Source of the DNA: an uncultured Mailhella sp.
Lineage (GTDB): Bacteria; Desulfobacterota; Desulfovibrionia; Desulfovibrionales; Desulfovibrionaceae
DNA: 64,000 nucleotides
NCBI RefSeq assembly: GCF_944324995.1
Contig: NZ_CALUYL010000009.1
Span: forward strand, 1-64,000
Direction: 5' to 3'
The notes below the pieces were generated by a model. That model saw only the letters and a list, made by a program, of their open reading frames with translations, was not told the origin of the DNA and did no database searches. The position numbers and the translations under genes were made by a program. Below are positions 33,189 to 41,926 of this stretch, one piece after another (the stretch's first letter is position 1; each line of letters begins with the position of its first letter).

Positions 33189-34667
33189 CTATTGACTATT
33201 TTTAATGGAAAATCCTGAACAGTACACCCCAAGCGTCCTGTTGTTTCCATAGACCTCTTCATTAACGGCAGGATTTGATGCGCCATCAACCGTGAACACT
33301 ATCTTGTTTATGCCGTCATTTAAAATGTCGTTAGGAATTTTAACAGATATCTTTGATGGATACTGTATTGAATACAGATCTATGTCATTCAGTACATGAT
33401 CGTTTACCGATATAATGAGTCTTTTGGAATGGTAATTCCATTTGAGGTCAAAAGAAAATATATAATCAGAATTCATCCAGTTGAAAAATTCCAATTCCGA
33501 CTTGCTTTTAGACCACTGAGCATCTCCCCATGATTCATAAGGATGCCAGTTTTTCAATACGATGTCCTTGGTATAGGACAGCAATTTTGAAGCTTCATCG
33601 TGTATTCTTAAAAAATGCAGCTGTGGATATGTGTAGGTAAGAATGAGAAGATTTGACTTTTCAAGAAGTTCAAACCATTCTTCCTTGCTCGGCAAGTGGT
33701 TTTCAAAGTTTTGTGAAGTGTCTGCGGTGGAGAACCCGGACTGAATGACATTGAAGAAGAGCTGTCGGGAAAAACTGTCGCCTACGGAAATGGCAGGTAT
33801 GCTTTCAGAAGAAGGGATGACGCCATATTCTGCAAGCGTCCATTCCTGCCGACCTTTTTTGTAAGAAGGCCAGATATTCAGGAGATCAGCAATGTCTCGC
33901 TCCGAAGCATAGGCATTGCTGGTTTGCTTTTTCCCTGTAAGGGCAATGGAAGGGACGTCTGCCCCATGCTTCTGCAACGCTTCAATGCCTTGTGCAAGCA
34001 CCAGGCCCGCTCCATACATGGACCAGTGTATTCCAGTATCCGGGAATGCCTCCATACGGTACTCATCCTTATCCAGCACACGGCATCCGTTGACATAGGG
34101 AATGTTTCTTGCCTGCAATTCATGCTCCCATATTGGATAAAGACTGGGAGGCATTTTTTCATGTTCTGCCCTGAATTCCCACAAGGGAGGTATGGTATCT
34201 GGCCGAATGTCTGCTTTGCTTGGCGCCATGACAAACAGGAATTCTTTTCCCATGTGGGCAAGACAAGCTTGTAATTCTGCAAGCACGGATGTAGTTGATG
34301 CAGCAATATTTTTAATATTGTCATCATTATAATGGGAATATTTGCTTGTTATATATTCTTTAAGATAAAGAACATTGTCTTTGCCTTGAAGAATGCTTCC
34401 GAAGTATCCTGAATGAAATTTTCCAGCATTCAAATAGTCGTAGATGGTGTTCTTGGCAACAAGCATCGTGTTTCTTGAGCCAAATTCTCTTGTCCACCAC
34501 TTTTCCATTTGTTTTTGAAAAGTGCCGTTGCTGAAGGTCTTCCATGAAAATTCAGGCCTCGCTACATTGGCTTCAACGCCGACCAGAGGAGCCTGCTTGA
34601 GGTTGAACCATGGAATGAGGAGAATGCCAAGTACGAATGCAATGAAACATATTTTAATTTTATTCAT
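33189..34667 (-). CDS. AlgJ/AlgX-like O-acetyltransferase accessory protein
   Basis: A 492-residue protein with one N-terminal membrane anchor (about residues 5-20) and a periplasmic SGNH-type domain. FGSRNTMLVAKN, the DTGIHWSMYGA segment (Asp and His of the catalytic triad), and SVGDSFSRQ (the Ser nucleophile motif) are the AlgJ/AlgX family marks. A C-terminal beta-rich domain (about 400-490) resembles a carbohydrate-binding module. It works with the neighbouring MBOAT protein to acetylate a surface glycan in the periplasm. It ends 3 bases past the MBOAT gene on the same strand. Confidence 0.8.
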   Translation of the reverse strand: MNKIKICFIAFVLGILLIPWFNLKQAPLVGVEANVARPEFSWKTFSNGTFQKQMEKWWTREFGSRNTMLVAKNTIYDYLNAGKFHSGYFGSILQGKDNVLYLKEYITSKYSHYNDDNIKNIAASTTSVLAELQACLAHMGKEFLFVMAPSKADIRPDTIPPLWEFRAEHEKMPPSLYPIWEHELQARNIPYVNGCRVLDKDEYRMEAFPDTGIHWSMYGAGLVLAQGIEALQKHGADVPSIALTGKKQTSNAYASERDIADLLNIWPSYKKGRQEWTLAEYGVIPSSESIPAISVGDSFSRQLFFNVIQSGFSTADTSQNFENHLPSKEEWFELLEKSNLLILTYTYPQLHFLRIHDEASKLLSYTKDIVLKNWHPYESWGDAQWSKSKSELEFFNWMNSDYIFSFDLKWNYHSKRLIISVNDHVLNDIDLYSIQYPSKISVKIPNDILNDGINKIVFTVDGASNPAVNEEVYGNNRTLGVYCSGFSIKNSQ

Positions 34668-34669
34668 GG

Positions 34670-36076
34670 CTAAAACCTGAAATAAATGAAAGGACTGAAA
34701 CTGCTCGTCATTGAGAATACATAACTTCCTATAAAGAGTAACATTAAAATGAATATTCCAAGAAGTTTATTTTGCAGATAGGAGAAGGAGAATATTTTTA
34801 TGGGATACGAAAATACTATGCCCAGGCACATGAAAAGAACGTTGCTTATCGTTATGCAGTATTCCCATGCCGGAATGAAGGAATACATGTTGTATGAACT
34901 GTTTCCGAAAAACATGATTTTTAAATATTCTAACGCGTAGGAGAGATCAGGGGCGCGGAAAAGCACCCAGCCTATCATGACGAAAAGCAGCACATAGGCA
35001 TTGGCGAAAAGCTTTGGCAGGCGACTGATAAATTTGCCCGTGAAACGTTCTGAAATAAGACCGAATCCGTGCCAGACGCCCCAGAGGATGAAATTCCAGG
35101 CTGCACCATGCCATAGGCCGCAGACAAGGAACACTATGAACTGATTGATCAGCGTGCGGCCTGCCGAAATGCGGTTGCCGCCGAGCGGAATATAAAGATA
35201 GTCCCGCAGCCATGAAGAAAGAGAAATATGCCACCGTCTCCAGAATTCCTTGATGGAGAGAGAGCAGTATGGAAAATTGAAGTTTTCCAGAAAGTGAAAA
35301 TTGAATATGCGTCCGAGGCCTATGGCCATATCGGAGTATGCAGAAAAATCGTAATAAATCTGCAGTGAATACGCTATGCAGCCCATCCAGGCCCAGAACT
35401 GCGGTATGGTGCCGACTTCAGTGATGAATATATGGTCGGCTATAAAGCCCATGTTGTCTGCGATGAAGACTTTTTTTGCCAGGCCGATGCTAAAGCGGAC
35501 CAGTCCTTCGTAGACATTGTTTACATTCAGACTGCGATCATTCAGTTCTGAGCAGATGGTGCTGTAGCGCACAATGGGGCCAGCCACCAGCTGAGGAAAA
35601 AGCGAAATATAAAGAGCAAGATTGAATAAACTTTTTTGTACGTCTACTTCCTTGCGATAAACATCTATCGTATATGACATAGCCTGAAAGCAATAAAAGG
35701 ATATGCCTATGGGAAGAGCTATGCCTGGGAGAGGTATTTCTGGAATCGACAGCAGATTACACAGAATGTTTATATTTGAAAGAGCGAAGTCAAGATATTT
35801 GTATATAAACAAGACTCCGATATTTATGAAAATCGCTAAAAACAGAATGATTTTTTTTCTGGAAACATAAGATGTTCTGTTTATAAAAATTGCTGCATAG
35901 TAATTGATTAATATGAGCATCAACATTACCAGGCAGGCTTTTGGTTCACCCCATGAATAGAATATAAGACTTGCAAATAGTAATATTATATTTCTATATT
36001 CTATTTTAGACAAAAAATAGACGATAAGTAAGAGAGGAAGAAAGACTGAAAGAAAGAATGGGGATGAAAAAACCAT
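34670..36076 (-). CDS. MBOAT-family O-acyltransferase (AlgI-like)
   Basis: A 468-residue polytopic protein with about eleven helices. Family marks are the hydrophobic start MVFSSPFFLSVFLPLLLIVYF, LPIGISFYCFQAMSYTIDVYRKEV, the FPQLVAGPIVRYS block and EFWRRWHISLSSWLRDYLYIPLGGNR with the histidine of the active site, followed by CGLWHGAAWNFILWG. In alginate synthesis the homologue transfers acetyl groups to the AlgJ/AlgX protein across the membrane. Here it precedes the AlgJ-like gene and is probably its partner. The gene has lower GC than the neighbouring sugar-nucleotide genes. Confidence 0.9.
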   Translation of the reverse strand: MVFSSPFFLSVFLPLLLIVYFLSKIEYRNIILLFASLIFYSWGEPKACLVMLMLILINYYAAIFINRTSYVSRKKIILFLAIFINIGVLFIYKYLDFALSNINILCNLLSIPEIPLPGIALPIGISFYCFQAMSYTIDVYRKEVDVQKSLFNLALYISLFPQLVAGPIVRYSTICSELNDRSLNVNNVYEGLVRFSIGLAKKVFIADNMGFIADHIFITEVGTIPQFWAWMGCIAYSLQIYYDFSAYSDMAIGLGRIFNFHFLENFNFPYCSLSIKEFWRRWHISLSSWLRDYLYIPLGGNRISAGRTLINQFIVFLVCGLWHGAAWNFILWGVWHGFGLISERFTGKFISRLPKLFANAYVLLFVMIGWVLFRAPDLSYALEYLKIMFFGNSSYNMYSFIPAWEYCITISNVLFMCLGIVFSYPIKIFSFSYLQNKLLGIFILMLLFIGSYVFSMTSSFSPFIYFRF

Positions 36077-36143: not shown

Positions 36144-37175
36144 CTACTTTTCGTTTTTAACCAGTTCCATGTCATGGCGGACCATGAGCTTGACCAGCTC
36201 CTCAAAGGAGGTCTTGGTGGGGTTCCAGCCCAGCTTGGTCTTGGCCTTGGTGGGATTGCCCCAAAGGTTCACGACGTCCGTCGGACGGTAGAACTTGGGC
36301 GAAACTTCCACGAGCACGCGGCCGGTCTTCTTGTCTATGCCCTGTTCCGCCTCGCCTTCGCCGCGGAATTCCAGTTCTATGCCGGCTTCGTGGAAGGCCA
36401 GGGTGCAGAATTCACGCACGGAATGCTGATCGCCGGTGGCGATGACGAAGTCTTCCGGCTCTTCCTGCTGAAGGATGAGCCACATGCATTCCACATAGTC
36501 CTTGGCGTAGCCCCAGTCGCGCAGGGCGGAAAGATTGCCGAGATACAGCTTGTCCTGTTTGCCCTGAGCAATGCGCGCGGCGGCCAGCGTAATCTTGCGG
36601 GTAACGAAGGTTTCGCCGCGCCGCTCGGATTCATGATTGAACAGAATGCCGGAGCAGGCGTACATGCCGTAGGCTTCGCGGTATTCCTTGGTGATCCAGA
36701 ATCCGTACTGCTTGGCCACGGCATAGGGGGAGTAGGGGTGGAAGGGCGTGGTTTCGCTCTGCGGACATTCTTCCACCTTGCCGTACAGTTCGGACGTGGA
36801 GGCCTGATAGACGCGGCAGGTCTTTTCCAGACCGCACAGACGCACGGCTTCCAGCACGCGCAGGACGCCGGTGGCCACGACGTCGGCCGTGTACTCCGGG
36901 ACCTCGAAGCTTACCTGCACATGGCTCTGTGCAGCAAGATTGTAGAGCTCATCGGGCTTCACCAGACCGACGATACGCACGAGACTCATGGAGTCGGAAA
37001 GATCGCCGTAATGCAGATGGAAGTGAGGGTTCCCTTCAAGATGGTCGATGCGTTCACGCTTTTCCGTGGCGGAACGGCGGACGATGCCGTGGACATCGTA
37101 GCCTTTTTCCAGAAGGAATTCGGCAAGATAGGAGCCGTCCTGTCCTGTAACTCCGGTAATGAGAGCAGTTTTCAT
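36144..37175 (-). CDS. gmd: GDP-mannose 4,6-dehydratase
   Basis: A 343-residue short-chain dehydrogenase that converts GDP-D-mannose to GDP-4-keto-6-deoxy-D-mannose. NAD(P)-binding [24 protein letters not shown], the catalytic [10 protein letters not shown] (Tyr-x3-Lys), the [12 protein letters not shown] stretch and the [17 protein letters not shown] segment are family marks. No fucose synthase (fcl) gene is in the window; the reductase here is the Rmd-like gene at 29657. Cotranscribed with manB and manC. Confidence 0.95.
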
Positions 37176-37202: not shown

Positions 37203-38552
37203 CTATATCCGAATTTTTTTCAGCAGTTCTTCCGTTTTTTCTTCCATGAGGGCCTTGTTGCCGCGACTTTCCACGTTGAGGCGCAACACCGGTTCGGTGT
37301 TCGAGCCGCGCAGGTTGAAGCGCCAGTCGGGGAAGGCCACGGAAAGACCGTCCACGCGGGTGACTTCCGCTCCGGGAAGGGCGGCATAGTCGGCTTCCAC
37401 GCTCCTCAGCACGGCGGATATGTCGTCCACCCGGGAGTTGATTTCTCCGCTGCAAGGAAAGGCCTTGATGCGGTCGTCCACGCATTCGGCCAGCGTTTTT
37501 CCAGAGTCGCTTAAAAGCTGGGTCACGAGCAGCCAGGAGATCATGCCTGAGTCGCAGTAGGCGAAGTTGCGGAAGTAGTGATGCGCGCTCATTTCTCCGC
37601 CGTACAGGGCGTCTTCGGCGCGCATCCTTTCCTTGATGAAGGCATGGCCGGTTTTGGATTCTATGGGCTGGCCGCCGGCCCTGCGCACCACGTCCTGCGT
37701 GTTCCAGGTGAGGCGCGGATCATGAATGATCTTGGCGCCGGGGTGTCTCTTCAGAAGCGCTTCGGCAATCATGCCCACGATGTAGTAGCCTTCGATGAAA
37801 CGGCCTTCGGCATCGTAGAAGAAGCAGCGGTCGAAATCTCCGTCCCAGGCCAGACCGAAGTCGGCTTGGCATTCGCACACGGCCCGGGAGGTAAGCGCGC
37901 GATTCTCCGGCAGCAGGGGATTGGGCACGCCGTTGGGAAACGTGCCGTCCGGTTCGCCGTGGATGAGCTCGATGTCCAGAGGCAGACGGTCGGCCAGCTT
38001 TTTTATGATGAGGCCGGCGCAGCCGTTGCCGGGATCGGCCACGATGCGGAAGTGCCTGAACGACTCTGGATGCACATAGCTCAAAAGATGTTCCACGTAT
38101 TCGTCGCGGAAGCTTGCTTCGGTGAAGCTTCCTTTCAACCGTGCGGGAACATCCAGGCCTTCGGCGATGCGGTCGCGTATGGCGAAGAGGCCGGAATCTC
38201 CGCTCACGGGAACGGCGCCGCCGCGCACCATCTTGAAGCCGTTTTCGTCGGCCGGGTTGTGGCTGCCTGTGACCATGATGCCGCCGTCGAAGTTTTGGGC
38301 AAAGGAGGCGTAATAGATTTCTTCGGTGCCGCACATGCCTATGCCGGTCACGTCCGTGCCGGCCGCGCGCAGACCGTCGGCCAGCGCATGGTAGAGGGCC
38401 GGTCCGGAAAGACGGGCGTCGTGTCCTATGACCACGGTTTTCGGGCGGAACTGCTGCGCATAGGCGTAGCCTATCTGCCGTGCCAGCTGTTCATTCAGCG
38501 TGGAAGGATATTTGCCCCGGACATCGTAGGCCTTGAAGCCGGAAAGATTCAT
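37203..38552 (-). CDS. manB: Phosphomannomutase
   Basis: A 449-residue alpha-D-phosphohexomutase converting mannose-6-phosphate to mannose-1-phosphate. The phospho-serine loop TGSHNP (about residue 97) is clear, as are the metal loop DGDFDRCFFYD and the GEMSAHHYF sugar-binding loop. The four-domain length is normal. Its ATG overlaps the manC stop (ATGA), showing translational coupling. Function is first in the GDP-mannose route. Confidence 0.94.
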   Translation of the reverse strand: MNLSGFKAYDVRGKYPSTLNEQLARQIGYAYAQQFRPKTVVIGHDARLSGPALYHALADGLRAAGTDVTGIGMCGTEEIYYASFAQNFDGGIMVTGSHNPADENGFKMVRGGAVPVSGDSGLFAIRDRIAEGLDVPARLKGSFTEASFRDEYVEHLLSYVHPESFRHFRIVADPGNGCAGLIIKKLADRLPLDIELIHGEPDGTFPNGVPNPLLPENRALTSRAVCECQADFGLAWDGDFDRCFFYDAEGRFIEGYYIVGMIAEALLKRHPGAKIIHDPRLTWNTQDVVRRAGGQPIESKTGHAFIKERMRAEDALYGGEMSAHHYFRNFAYCDSGMISWLLVTQLLSDSGKTLAECVDDRIKAFPCSGEINSRVDDISAVLRSVEADYAALPGAEVTRVDGLSVAFPDWRFNLRGSNTEPVLRLNVESRGNKALMEEKTEELLKKIRI

Positions 38553-39967
38553 GCCTTTGTCTCCCCCGCACGACCGTAGTCGTCCTGAAGTCTTACGATG
38601 TCGTCTTCCCCGAGATAGGAACCGGACTGCACTTCAATGAAAACGAGCGGGATGGTGCCCGGATTCTTGATGCGGTGCTTCATGCCGAGAGGAATGTAGA
38701 CGGATTCGTTTTCCGTGAGCAGGCGGGTGTTGTCGCCAATGGTGACTTCGGCCGTGCCGCTCACCACGATCCAGTGTTCGGCCCTGTGGTAGTGGAGCTG
38801 AAGGGAATTTTCTTCTCCCGGGTCCACCACTATGCGCTTGACCTGGAACCTGTCGGAAAGGACCAGCGTTTCATAGCTGCCCCACGGGCGATACACCTTG
38901 AGGTGAATGTCGGATTCCGGACGCTTTTCAAGCTTGAGCTTTTCCACCACCTGCTTCACGTCCTGGGACTTGCGGCGATCGGTGATGAGAATGGCGTCGC
39001 GGGTTTCCACCACGGCAAGATCGTGCACGTCCAGAGCGGCGATGAGGCGGCCGGAGCTGCGCAGATAGCAGTTGCTGGAATTTTCCACGATGACGTCGCC
39101 CTCGCAGGCGTTGCCGTAGGCGTCCTTGGGCGAAACCTCATAAAAGGCCTCCCAGGAGCCGAGATCGCTCCAGCCGCAGTCCACCGGAACCACGGCTGCC
39201 TTTGTCGTGTGTTCCATGACGGCGTAGTCGATGGAGTCCGACGGAGACTGGCAGAACGCCGTGCCGGGACGGATGAAGGAAAGATCGGTGCGGCGCTGGC
39301 CCCAGGCTTCCCGTACCGTCTGCCAGATGGAAGGCGCGAACCGCTTGAGTTCTTCCAGATAGGTCGAGGCCTTGAAGAAGAAGATGCCGGAGTTCCAGTA
39401 GTGTCCGCCTTCGGCAATCATGGCCTTTGCCTTGTCTTCCGAGGGCTTTTCGAGAAAGCGATTCACCTCGAACACGCCCGCGGAGATTTCGGATCCCCGC
39501 TTGATGTAGCCGTAACCGGTTTCCGGGCATGAAGGTTCTATACCGAAGGTGACGAGCATGCCGGATTCTGCCGCCCGACGGGCCTGTTCCACGGCCGCAC
39601 AGAATTTTTCCGGATGTGCGAAGCGGTGATCGGAAGGCAGTACCAGAAGAAGGTTGTCGTGTTTTTCCAGCGCCGCGAAGGCGGCCAGCGCTATGGCCGG
39701 CGCCGTGTTGCGGCTGACCGGTTCAAGAATGATGGAACCGGTCTTGTCTTCTTCATGCATAGCGGCGCTGGCGTAGAAGCGATAGGCGTCGTTGCTGACC
39801 ACAATGGGGTCTTCCGTATCCGTGAGGGCATTGGTACGGTTGAGCGTTTCTTTAAAAAGGTTGCTGCCGTTGCCGAGCAGCATGAACTGCTTGGGATACT
39901 TGGTGCGGGAGGCGGGCCAAAGACGCGTGCCTGAACCGCCGCAAAGAATGACTGGTTGAATTTTCAT
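38549..39967 (-). CDS. manC: Mannose-1-phosphate guanylyltransferase / mannose-6-phosphate isomerase
   Basis: A 472-residue bifunctional enzyme. The N-terminal guanylyltransferase has the signature CGGSGTRLWPASRTKYPKQF and the FLEKP motif. The C-terminal type II isomerase (about residues 345-460) carries the zinc/cupin motif QLHYHRAEHWIVVSGTAEV. It makes GDP-mannose from mannose-6-phosphate with manB. It is the second gene of the operon, 20 bases after the recombinase-like gene. Confidence 0.95.
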   Translation of the reverse strand: MKIQPVILCGGSGTRLWPASRTKYPKQFMLLGNGSNLFKETLNRTNALTDTEDPIVVSNDAYRFYASAAMHEEDKTGSIILEPVSRNTAPAIALAAFAALEKHDNLLLVLPSDHRFAHPEKFCAAVEQARRAAESGMLVTFGIEPSCPETGYGYIKRGSEISAGVFEVNRFLEKPSEDKAKAMIAEGGHYWNSGIFFFKASTYLEELKRFAPSIWQTVREAWGQRRTDLSFIRPGTAFCQSPSDSIDYAVMEHTTKAAVVPVDCGWSDLGSWEAFYEVSPKDAYGNACEGDVIVENSSNCYLRSSGRLIAALDVHDLAVVETRDAILITDRRKSQDVKQVVEKLKLEKRPESDIHLKVYRPWGSYETLVLSDRFQVKRIVVDPGEENSLQLHYHRAEHWIVVSGTAEVTIGDNTRLLTENESVYIPLGMKHRIKNPGTIPLVFIEVQSGSYLGEDDIVRLQDDYGRAGETKA

Positions 39968-39986: not shown

Positions 39987-40838
39987 CTAGTTGAATGACT
40001 TTACAATATTCGACTGATAGTTTCCCATGAAATTGCACAGCTCCGGCTGCGGAATGCCCATCTCCATAAGAAAGTTTGCAAAGCAGTGCCGCAAATCCTG
40101 AATGCGCAGTTCTGGCCTTCCCAGCCTGGTACGCAGAAGATTCCAAGTATAAAAAACAGAAGTGAGACGCTGCCCGGATGACGATGTAAAGAGCCACGGC
40201 ACCTCTTTGCGCCGGGGAAGTCTGCGAATAAGTCTGATGGCTTCGGTATTCAGGGGAATAAGTCTGCTCTGCCCCGTATAGGTCATCTTTGTGGCAAGAA
40301 CAGCGCGTCGCAGATGCACATCCTGCCAGCGGGCATAGAGGATTTCCGACTTGCTGGCCCCGGTAAGCAAAAGCAGATGAATGGCTTGCGCGCTGGGACG
40401 ATCGGCATATTCTTCAAGCAGATGAACAAGCTTCAATGCTTCTGCAGGCGTAAGAATTCCAGGAGCTCGTTGCTGCTTGTTTTTGCGCACAACCATATTC
40501 TGGAATGCAGCATCGCTCTTGAGCGCTCCCACCCGCACGGCAAAATTCAAAATATATTTGACGAGCCAGAACAGGCGATAACGCGAACTGGCAGCCAGGC
40601 CGTTGGCTTCCAAACTGGAGAGCCATTTCCCGAGTTTTTTTTCGGAAATTTCTGTCAGAGCGCAGTTACCAAGGTATGGCAGGATATGCCGGTTCAGATA
40701 GCGCTCGTCGGTCTTCCAGCTCCGCTTATTTTGCTGCACGTAGGGAAGATAACTGCTCCGAACAAACTCCTCGAACAGACACAGCCTGTTGATATCACTT
40801 GCATAGCTTGTGGTGATGGTCTTTTTCGCCCCTGCCAT
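39987..40838 (-). CDS. Tyrosine-recombinase-like protein lacking the catalytic residues
   Basis: A 283-residue protein with the two-domain layout of tyrosine recombinases: core-binding domain (about 10-115), catalytic-fold domain (about 125-283). The catalytic positions are lost. The Arg of the TGARxSE box is Ser162 (TGASKSE); the lysine of TKNG-type hairpins is Tyr187 (TYTG); the HDLRH box is QDLRH (Gln247, Arg250 kept); the LGH histidine is Asn273; and the nucleophile position at the end is Phe282 in the terminal SFN. I use the ATG at 40838 because AAGGA lies seven bases ahead; an ATG 17 codons upstream lacks a site. First gene of the glycan operon; likely DNA-binding rather than recombining. 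Confidence 0.85.
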   Translation of the reverse strand: MAGAKKTITTSYASDINRLCLFEEFVRSSYLPYVQQNKRSWKTDERYLNRHILPYLGNCALTEISEKKLGKWLSSLEANGLAASSRYRLFWLVKYILNFAVRVGALKSDAAFQNMVVRKNKQQRAPGILTPAEALKLVHLLEEYADRPSAQAIHLLLLTGASKSEILYARWQDVHLRRAVLATKMTYTGQSRLIPLNTEAIRLIRRLPRRKEVPWLFTSSSGQRLTSVFYTWNLLRTRLGRPELRIQDLRHCFANFLMEMGIPQPELCNFMGNYQSNIVKSFN

Positions 40839-40861: not shown

Positions 40862-40885
40862 CCAAAAAGTGTACTTTTTTGACAC
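40862..40885. promoter_or_regulatory. Palindrome site 1 upstream of the recombinase-like gene
   Basis: CCAAAAAGTGTACTTTTT followed by TGACAC: arms AAAAAGT and ACTTTTT around a GT centre. It lies 26-47 bases before the preferred start codon. It differs from site 2 at the two central bases and one base just outside the arm. Confidence 0.75.
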
Positions 40886-40979
40886 TCATAATAATGTCAG
40901 TTTCTTTCCAGACCTATAGCAGGGAACATCCGAAAATTCCAGCAAAAAAATAACGTCGATTTTCCCCGCCTCTTACCAG

Positions 40980-41003
40980 CCAAAAAGTACACTTTTTCGA
41001 CAT
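40980..41003. promoter_or_regulatory. Palindrome site 2 upstream of the recombinase-like gene
   Basis: CCAAAAAGTACACTTTTT followed by CGACAT, about 118 bases from site 1, in the same orientation with the same flanking CC and GACA. The interval between the sites (40886-40979) is where the operon promoter should be. I cannot pick out convincing -35/-10 elements in it. Confidence 0.72.
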
Positions 41004-41520: not shown

Positions 41521-41926
41521 ATAAGGTGAATGTTGTCCCGACATATATCCATATATTGCTAGAGATGCTGCTCAAAATGAGTGTATCGGCGTTTGTCGGA
41601 TATTTGAAAGGAAAGAGCAGCTTGATGATATATGAGCAGTTCGGTGAGCTGAAGTTCAAATATCGTAATCGGTAGTTCTGGTGCCGTGGTTACTATGTCG
41701 ACATGGTGGGTAAGAATAAGGCAAAAATAGCTGAGTACATCAGGCATCAACTGGCTGAGGATAAACTCGGAGAACAGCTGAGCATCCCATACGCCGGAAG
41801 CCCGTTTACGGGCCGCCGGTAACAGAAATGCAGATGTCAGACTGTAGATGCGCCTGTTAGGGCGCGGCTGGTAAGAAAGCCTTACAGGCGCACAAGAGGC
41901 CCCACCGGCTATGCCGGTGGGGCCTC
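41521..41926 (+). mobile_element. Decayed IS200/IS605-type insertion sequence
   Basis: The right part holds a degraded transposase frame and the left part a frameshifted remainder (near 41525-41576). The 3' end carries two hairpins, including a perfect 14-base stem around TAT (41896-41909 with 41913-41926), as IS200-type right ends do. I cannot see the left end, so the element is probably truncated. Confidence 0.75.
41577..41822 (+). pseudogene. IS200-type (Y1) transposase remnant
   Basis: The translated frame gives SVSAFVGYLKGKSSLMIYEQF, then FKYRNR, a TAG stop at 41673-41675, then FWCRGYYVD, then IAEYIRHQ and a final stop. These are the C-terminal motifs of TnpA Y1 transposases, with the nucleophilic tyrosine probably that of IAEYIRHQ. 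Upstream the HUH half is missing or frameshifted. An internal stop, frameshifts and a lost N-terminus make it inactive. Confidence 0.85.

Follow-up and report, generated by a model that had tools for sequence, protein, structure and literature searches.

The first gene of a capsule/glycan operon in an uncultured Mailhella sp., a gut bacterium of the Desulfovibrionaceae, encodes a protein with the two-domain fold of a tyrosine recombinase in which five catalytic positions are substituted, and this gene lies directly downstream of an invertible DNA segment. The protein (hereafter dead integrase) belongs to a clade in which the catalytic losses are shared and the fold is retained. On balance, we favor the interpretation that it binds DNA as a regulator without recombining it, with one copy in each phase-variable capsule operon, and that it is linked to capsule choice. 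The features around the gene in the window, that is, the whole stretch of 64,000 nucleotides that was analyzed, are listed in Table 1.

Table 1. Features at the dead-integrase locus of the window.
Feature	Position	Strand	Evidence or remarks
AlgX/AlgJ-like SGNH acetyltransferase	33189..34667	-	PF16822, E 2.6e-11
MBOAT O-acyltransferase (AlgI/DltB-like)	34670..36076	-	PF03062, E 7.5e-31
GDP-mannose 4,6-dehydratase (gmd)	36144..37175	-	TIGR01472, E 8.3e-160
Phosphomannomutase (ManB/CpsG)	37203..38552	-	PRK15414, E 2.6e-177, under the cut-off of the model
manC-type mannose-1-phosphate guanylyltransferase/mannose-6-phosphate isomerase	38549..39967	-	TIGR01479, E 1.4e-198
Dead tyrosine-recombinase-fold gene, first gene of the operon	39987..40838	-	283 aa; open frame, Pfam, AlphaFold2, Foldseek, alignment, dN/dS
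Proximal recombination site, AAAAAGT-GT-ACTTTTT	40864..40879		Perfect palindrome around asymmetric GT at 40871-40872
Invertible segment, 116 bp, presumed promoter carrier	40873..40988		Interior in the opposite orientation to that of the paralogous loci on C4, C12, and C22
Distal recombination site, AAAAAGT-AC-ACTTTTT	40982..40997		Inverted relative to the proximal site; central dinucleotide at 40989-40990

Domain structure and catalytic residues

The reading frame of the dead integrase was open over 283 codons from an ATG at 40838, and an alternative longer start was located at 40889, within the invertible segment. Pfam analysis identified a Phage_integrase domain (E 2.4e-13), preceded at the N-terminus by a SAM-like core-binding domain (E 4.6e-7). 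Both domains were folded in an AlphaFold2 model built with 19 clade sequences (mean pLDDT 86), for which the top PDB folds found by Foldseek were Tn1549 Int, lambda Int, and XerA. By all three methods, the core-binding and catalytic domain architecture of tyrosine recombinases was present, in agreement with an earlier note, made from the sequence alone, that had described both domains and the open frame.

Intact integrases of the same genus, with the reference motifs TGARK, SKSG, RIHDLRHTFAS, and LGH..TTMRYAH, were used for alignment. In the window protein, Arg-I was replaced by S162, the catalytic Lys by Y187, His-II by Q247, His-III by N273, and the nucleophilic Tyr by F282, while Arg-II was retained as R250. 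The five substitutions are certain because the intact integrases align without gaps through the motifs, and the residue numbers given in the earlier note were exact according to this alignment. The same note had regarded Arg250 as the only catalytic position kept; Arg250 is indeed kept, but the acidic active-site position E165 is retained as well, so that two active-site positions survive. The window protein does not carry the R-K-H-R-H/W-Y catalytic set of active tyrosine recombinases, and we propose from these residue losses that it can no longer cut DNA.

Distribution of the clade and selection

The genome containing the window (G000) harbored four copies of the gene, whose products were 100, 88, 84, and 70% identical to the window protein. 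A search of 288 Desulfovibrionaceae genomes revealed at least 20 further members in eight other Mailhella genomes, and a degenerate-peptide scan of GTDB r220 met the clade only in Mailhella. The clade was separated from intact integrases with a support of 1.0.

The full catalytic set was found in none of the clade members with intact frames. In every one of these, Arg-I was replaced by S, G, or C, His-II was replaced by Q or N, and the nucleophilic Tyr was missing with no conserved Tyr or Ser in its place. N273 was lineage-specific, His-III being retained in most relatives. Arg-II and the core-binding residues were invariant across the clade at 43-89% identity. The best relatives outside Mailhella (33-41% identical) retained HxxR and GH...RYAH in a motif check and are active integrases; no active homologue was found inside the clade. 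The closest sequence relatives, phage-type integrases of Desulfovibrionaceae (35-41% identical), have the same two-domain architecture, but they carry the full catalytic set, lack an upstream inverted-repeat pair, and do not head capsule operons. In the phage collection, only active integrases of approximately 25% identity were among the best matches listed.

Pairwise dN/dS over residues 19-250 was 0.06-0.16 (n = 8 pairs), and intact frames of the gene were present in at least eight genomes. A few copies were pseudogenes (G192d and G191b). The last approximately 30 residues were divergent among dead integrases, with the C-terminus truncated in one paralogue, and partial loss of function could have occurred in this region. 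Recent decay of an integrase was rejected on the basis of the dN/dS values, the clade-wide residue losses, and the intact frames in multiple species. The earlier note had named homologues with the full catalytic set as a sign of a recently damaged integrase; among the relatives, that set was present only in ordinary integrases of at most 41% identity, so this objection fails. The suggestion of selection for the fold was supported by a multi-copy, multi-species clade which, judged from its sequences, is kept by purifying selection and is not decaying.

Upstream invertible segment

The 116-bp segment directly upstream of the dead-integrase gene was flanked by two inverted 16-bp palindromes, the sole asymmetry of which was the central dinucleotide, GT versus AC, in opposite senses at the two ends. 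A serine invertase needs asymmetric central dinucleotides in opposite senses to invert the intervening DNA. The inner segment was conserved at all four dead-integrase loci of the genome, and the window copy was inverted relative to the other three (alignment scores against the C12 segment, -11.5 forward and 79 reverse), which identifies the segment as an inverton. In this comparison, made between paralogous loci and not between two states of one locus, both orientations were seen in two species (G000a versus b-d and G178a versus b-d). The orientation split was 3:1 in G000, where the window locus was the odd one, and in G178, and 2:2 in G189; the loci read in G192 and G193 included no odd-orientation locus.

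The 14-bp core of the sites occurred in 11 exact copies in the genome, forming five pairs and one single site. An inverted-repeat pair was located upstream of 22 of the 23 dead-integrase genes and 0 of the 7 intact integrases. As a control, one of 93 other ORF starts in the window had a repeat pair (score of 20 matched bases, which is the window site's own score). The exception among the dead integrases, G188a (L083), had in place of the repeat pair a long tract of CCTT tetranucleotides, approximately 100-160 bp upstream of the gene start; slipped-strand phase variation in place of inversion is possible there. In G178, the sites differed in sequence, and one of the four loci was again inverted relative to the rest; the repeat occurred eight times in that genome, in pairs that were confined to its four dead-integrase loci.

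Scans of the segment with the sigma-70 consensus and matrix gave no consistent promoter direction. In the window orientation, an extended -10-like sequence, TGCTATA, points toward the gene and is only suggestive of a promoter. No significant operator motif was shared by the inner segments across sub-clades with different sites. The palindromes were also considered as operators of the dead protein. This reading was dropped: they correspond to serine-invertase sites, and they are also found at an autotransporter locus that has no dead gene.

Candidate serine invertase

Contig C2 encoded a serine recombinase of 201 amino acids (P0002; Resolvase family PF00239, E 6.6e-29), for which the match to the Mpi-family NCBIfam model fell far short of the cut-off. 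The fifth site pair, with the same 14-bp cores as the capsule sites, was located between P0002 and a pertactin-type autotransporter (L031:6431-10145), and this adhesin is probably under the same kind of switch. The autotransporter locus had the same orientation in G000 and G192, and no same-locus inversion was seen between them. Homologues of P0002 were found in 18 of the 19 Mailhella genomes, some of them only approximately 40% identical. Serine invertases of one family adjoined GTGTAC-core repeat pairs in seven genomes (G000, G192, G188, G180, G182, G190, and G178); in G190 and G180, the order was invertase, invertible segment, and dead integrase. From its family match and its position beside the same site cores, P0002 is regarded as the candidate cognate invertase of the window segment.

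Associated capsule and glycan operons

In the window, manC starts 19 bp past the dead-integrase stop, which confirms the latter as the first gene of the glycan operon. A capsule or glycan operon followed the dead integrase at every locus checked. These operons included genes for a glycosyltransferase and CDP-glucose 4,6-dehydratase on C4, glycosyltransferases on C12, and a nucleotidyltransferase and sugar-phosphate genes on C22. In G178, an ABC-2 transporter, an ABC ATPase, and Poly_export (capsule export) were encoded after the dead gene, and likewise in G192 by sequence resemblance. At several loci, the next gene overlapped the dead gene or started within tens of bases. The position of the gene agrees with the earlier note, which contained neither the upstream inverton, nor the serine invertase, nor the recurrence at nearly every capsule locus with a dead gene.

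Comparison with known systems

MrpR (YopR), the master repressor of Bacillus phage SPbeta, has an integrase fold and acts as a non-recombining DNA-binding repressor; its Arg-I is replaced by V or S and its His-II by N, and Arg-II is kept (PMC10516654). The Mailhella family has in common with MrpR the retained fold, the loss of Arg-I and His-II, and the retained Arg-II. In contrast, MrpR is a phage repressor encoded by a single gene in Bacillus, retains Lys and Tyr, and has no link to invertons or capsule genes. A profile search of PDB sequences with the dead-integrase family matched XerC/D/A-type and phage/transposon integrases, and not MrpR or SroF. As MrpR and the Mailhella family show no sequence match, the residue losses in the two probably arose independently. 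SroF of phi3T (PDB 9rd5/9rgl), a solved relative of MrpR, was among the Foldseek matches of the dead integrase; its match was weaker than those to active recombinases, so the parallel with MrpR is one of analogy. With this precedent (PMC10516654), a DNA-binding regulator that does not cut, as the earlier note had suggested, is plausible.

In Bacteroides, several phase-variable capsule operons, each behind an invertible promoter, begin with the genes for UpxY and UpxZ, with one regulator copy per locus (PMC12118408). The dead integrases likewise occupy the first position behind an inverton at each capsule locus, the promoter content being presumed here. However, UpxY is an antiterminator of the NusG type that UpxZ inhibits, whereas in Mailhella an integrase-fold protein takes this place; neither a UpxY NusG-like fold nor UpxZ homology was found in the window protein, which matched integrase families only. 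The Bacteroides operons use Mpi or tyrosine invertases. The combination of these known elements, inverton, capsule operon, and integrase-fold regulator, was not found described in the open-licence papers searched, among which none joined "Mailhella" and "phase variation".

Proposed role and alternative explanations

The intact fold, the absent nucleophile, the strong constraint, the MrpR precedent, and the UpxY/UpxZ-like position together favor a regulator of capsule choice. We infer that the segment carries a promoter, that P0002 flips it, and that the dead integrase binds DNA in a regulatory role. The Resolvase-family invertase encoded on C2 would act in trans on the 116-bp segment, the orientation of which would determine whether the capsule/glycan operon is transcribed. 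The former tyrosine recombinase, keeping its two-domain DNA-clamp fold without cutting, would be produced only while its own operon is transcribed, and may then act like UpxZ of Bacteroides by damping the remaining capsule promoters under inverton control, or may stabilize its own promoter. More tentatively, the protein from the ON locus might bind and silence the other capsule operons, or lock them OFF, resulting in exclusive expression and making it an integrase-based counterpart of UpxY/UpxZ; the 3:1 orientation split would fit one ON locus per genome, and G189 shows 2:2.

Such a regulator would suggest that a non-cutting recombinase has become a regulator a second time, independently, here on a bacterial chromosome and in connection with capsule phase variation. 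A long-standing question concerns bacteria other than Bacteroides with several phase-variable capsules, namely how a cell is restricted to one of them; it becomes testable because each capsule locus has its own copy beside the switch. The annotation of these genes as "integrase" hides the capsule-switch system.

An unlikely alternative is that the dead protein serves as an architectural accessory factor at or near the segment, tuning how often or in which direction the serine invertase flips it, like a directionality factor or a catalytically silent subunit. Recombinase-fold proteins are able to hold synapses, and in every sub-clade the dead gene directly adjoined the invertible segment regardless of the site sequence; in G190 and G180, it was also next to the serine invertase. 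However, a mixed tetramer with the dead protein is not expected because the invertase is of the serine type with a different fold. Further, the autotransporter inverton on C2 has no adjacent dead gene, no dead gene was found at the invertase-linked repeat pair of G182, and G193 and G178 combine the same protein family with other site types.

Even less probable is that the gene is a hitchhiking relic or a recently damaged integrase that persists only because of its position between promoter and capsule genes, through translational coupling or as a homology arm for cassette exchange. The low core dN/dS, the lack of any catalytically intact clade member, the invariant Arg-II and core-binding residues, and the occurrence of intact frames in eight genomes or more argue against it, although it would account for the variable C-termini, the pseudogene copies, the tight coupling to the next gene, and the different capsule cassettes at what seems to be the same chromosomal site (downstream of the same GntR-family gene) in G000 (C4) and G192. 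That the dead integrase is still a recombinase using unconventional residues is very improbable despite its intact fold and retained Arg-II and Glu, since all intact members lack Arg-I and the Tyr without a conserved Tyr or Ser replacement and the sites match the serine invertase instead.

Additional observations

The two loci downstream of the same GntR-family gene (L032 in G000 and L073 in G192) differed in both the dead integrase and the capsule cassette, which suggests cassette exchange at a fixed chromosomal site. A second P0002-like serine invertase, 72% identical (L162, G000 C1:293598), had no GTGTAC-type repeat pair in its flanks. A single exact site was located 33 bp upstream of an ORF of 985 amino acids (L035:9466-12580), with a degenerate partner approximately 120 bp further, possibly forming another invertible promoter. 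In G193, the site pair of this genome was also present before an MBOAT acyltransferase gene, as well as a short distance downstream of a gene for a XerC-like recombinase (L197:6659-6835 and L199:3269-3446), which suggests a different invertase in that species. The Rfam scan of 38-44 kb of the window gave no match. Upstream of the window locus, a remnant of an IS200-like Y1 transposase was identified (41541-41820, + strand; Y1_Tnp, E 5e-7 across its first 44 amino acids; one internal stop), and an ORF resembling an IS200-like transposase in sequence was also located upstream of the C22 dead-integrase locus (L034:6403-6963).
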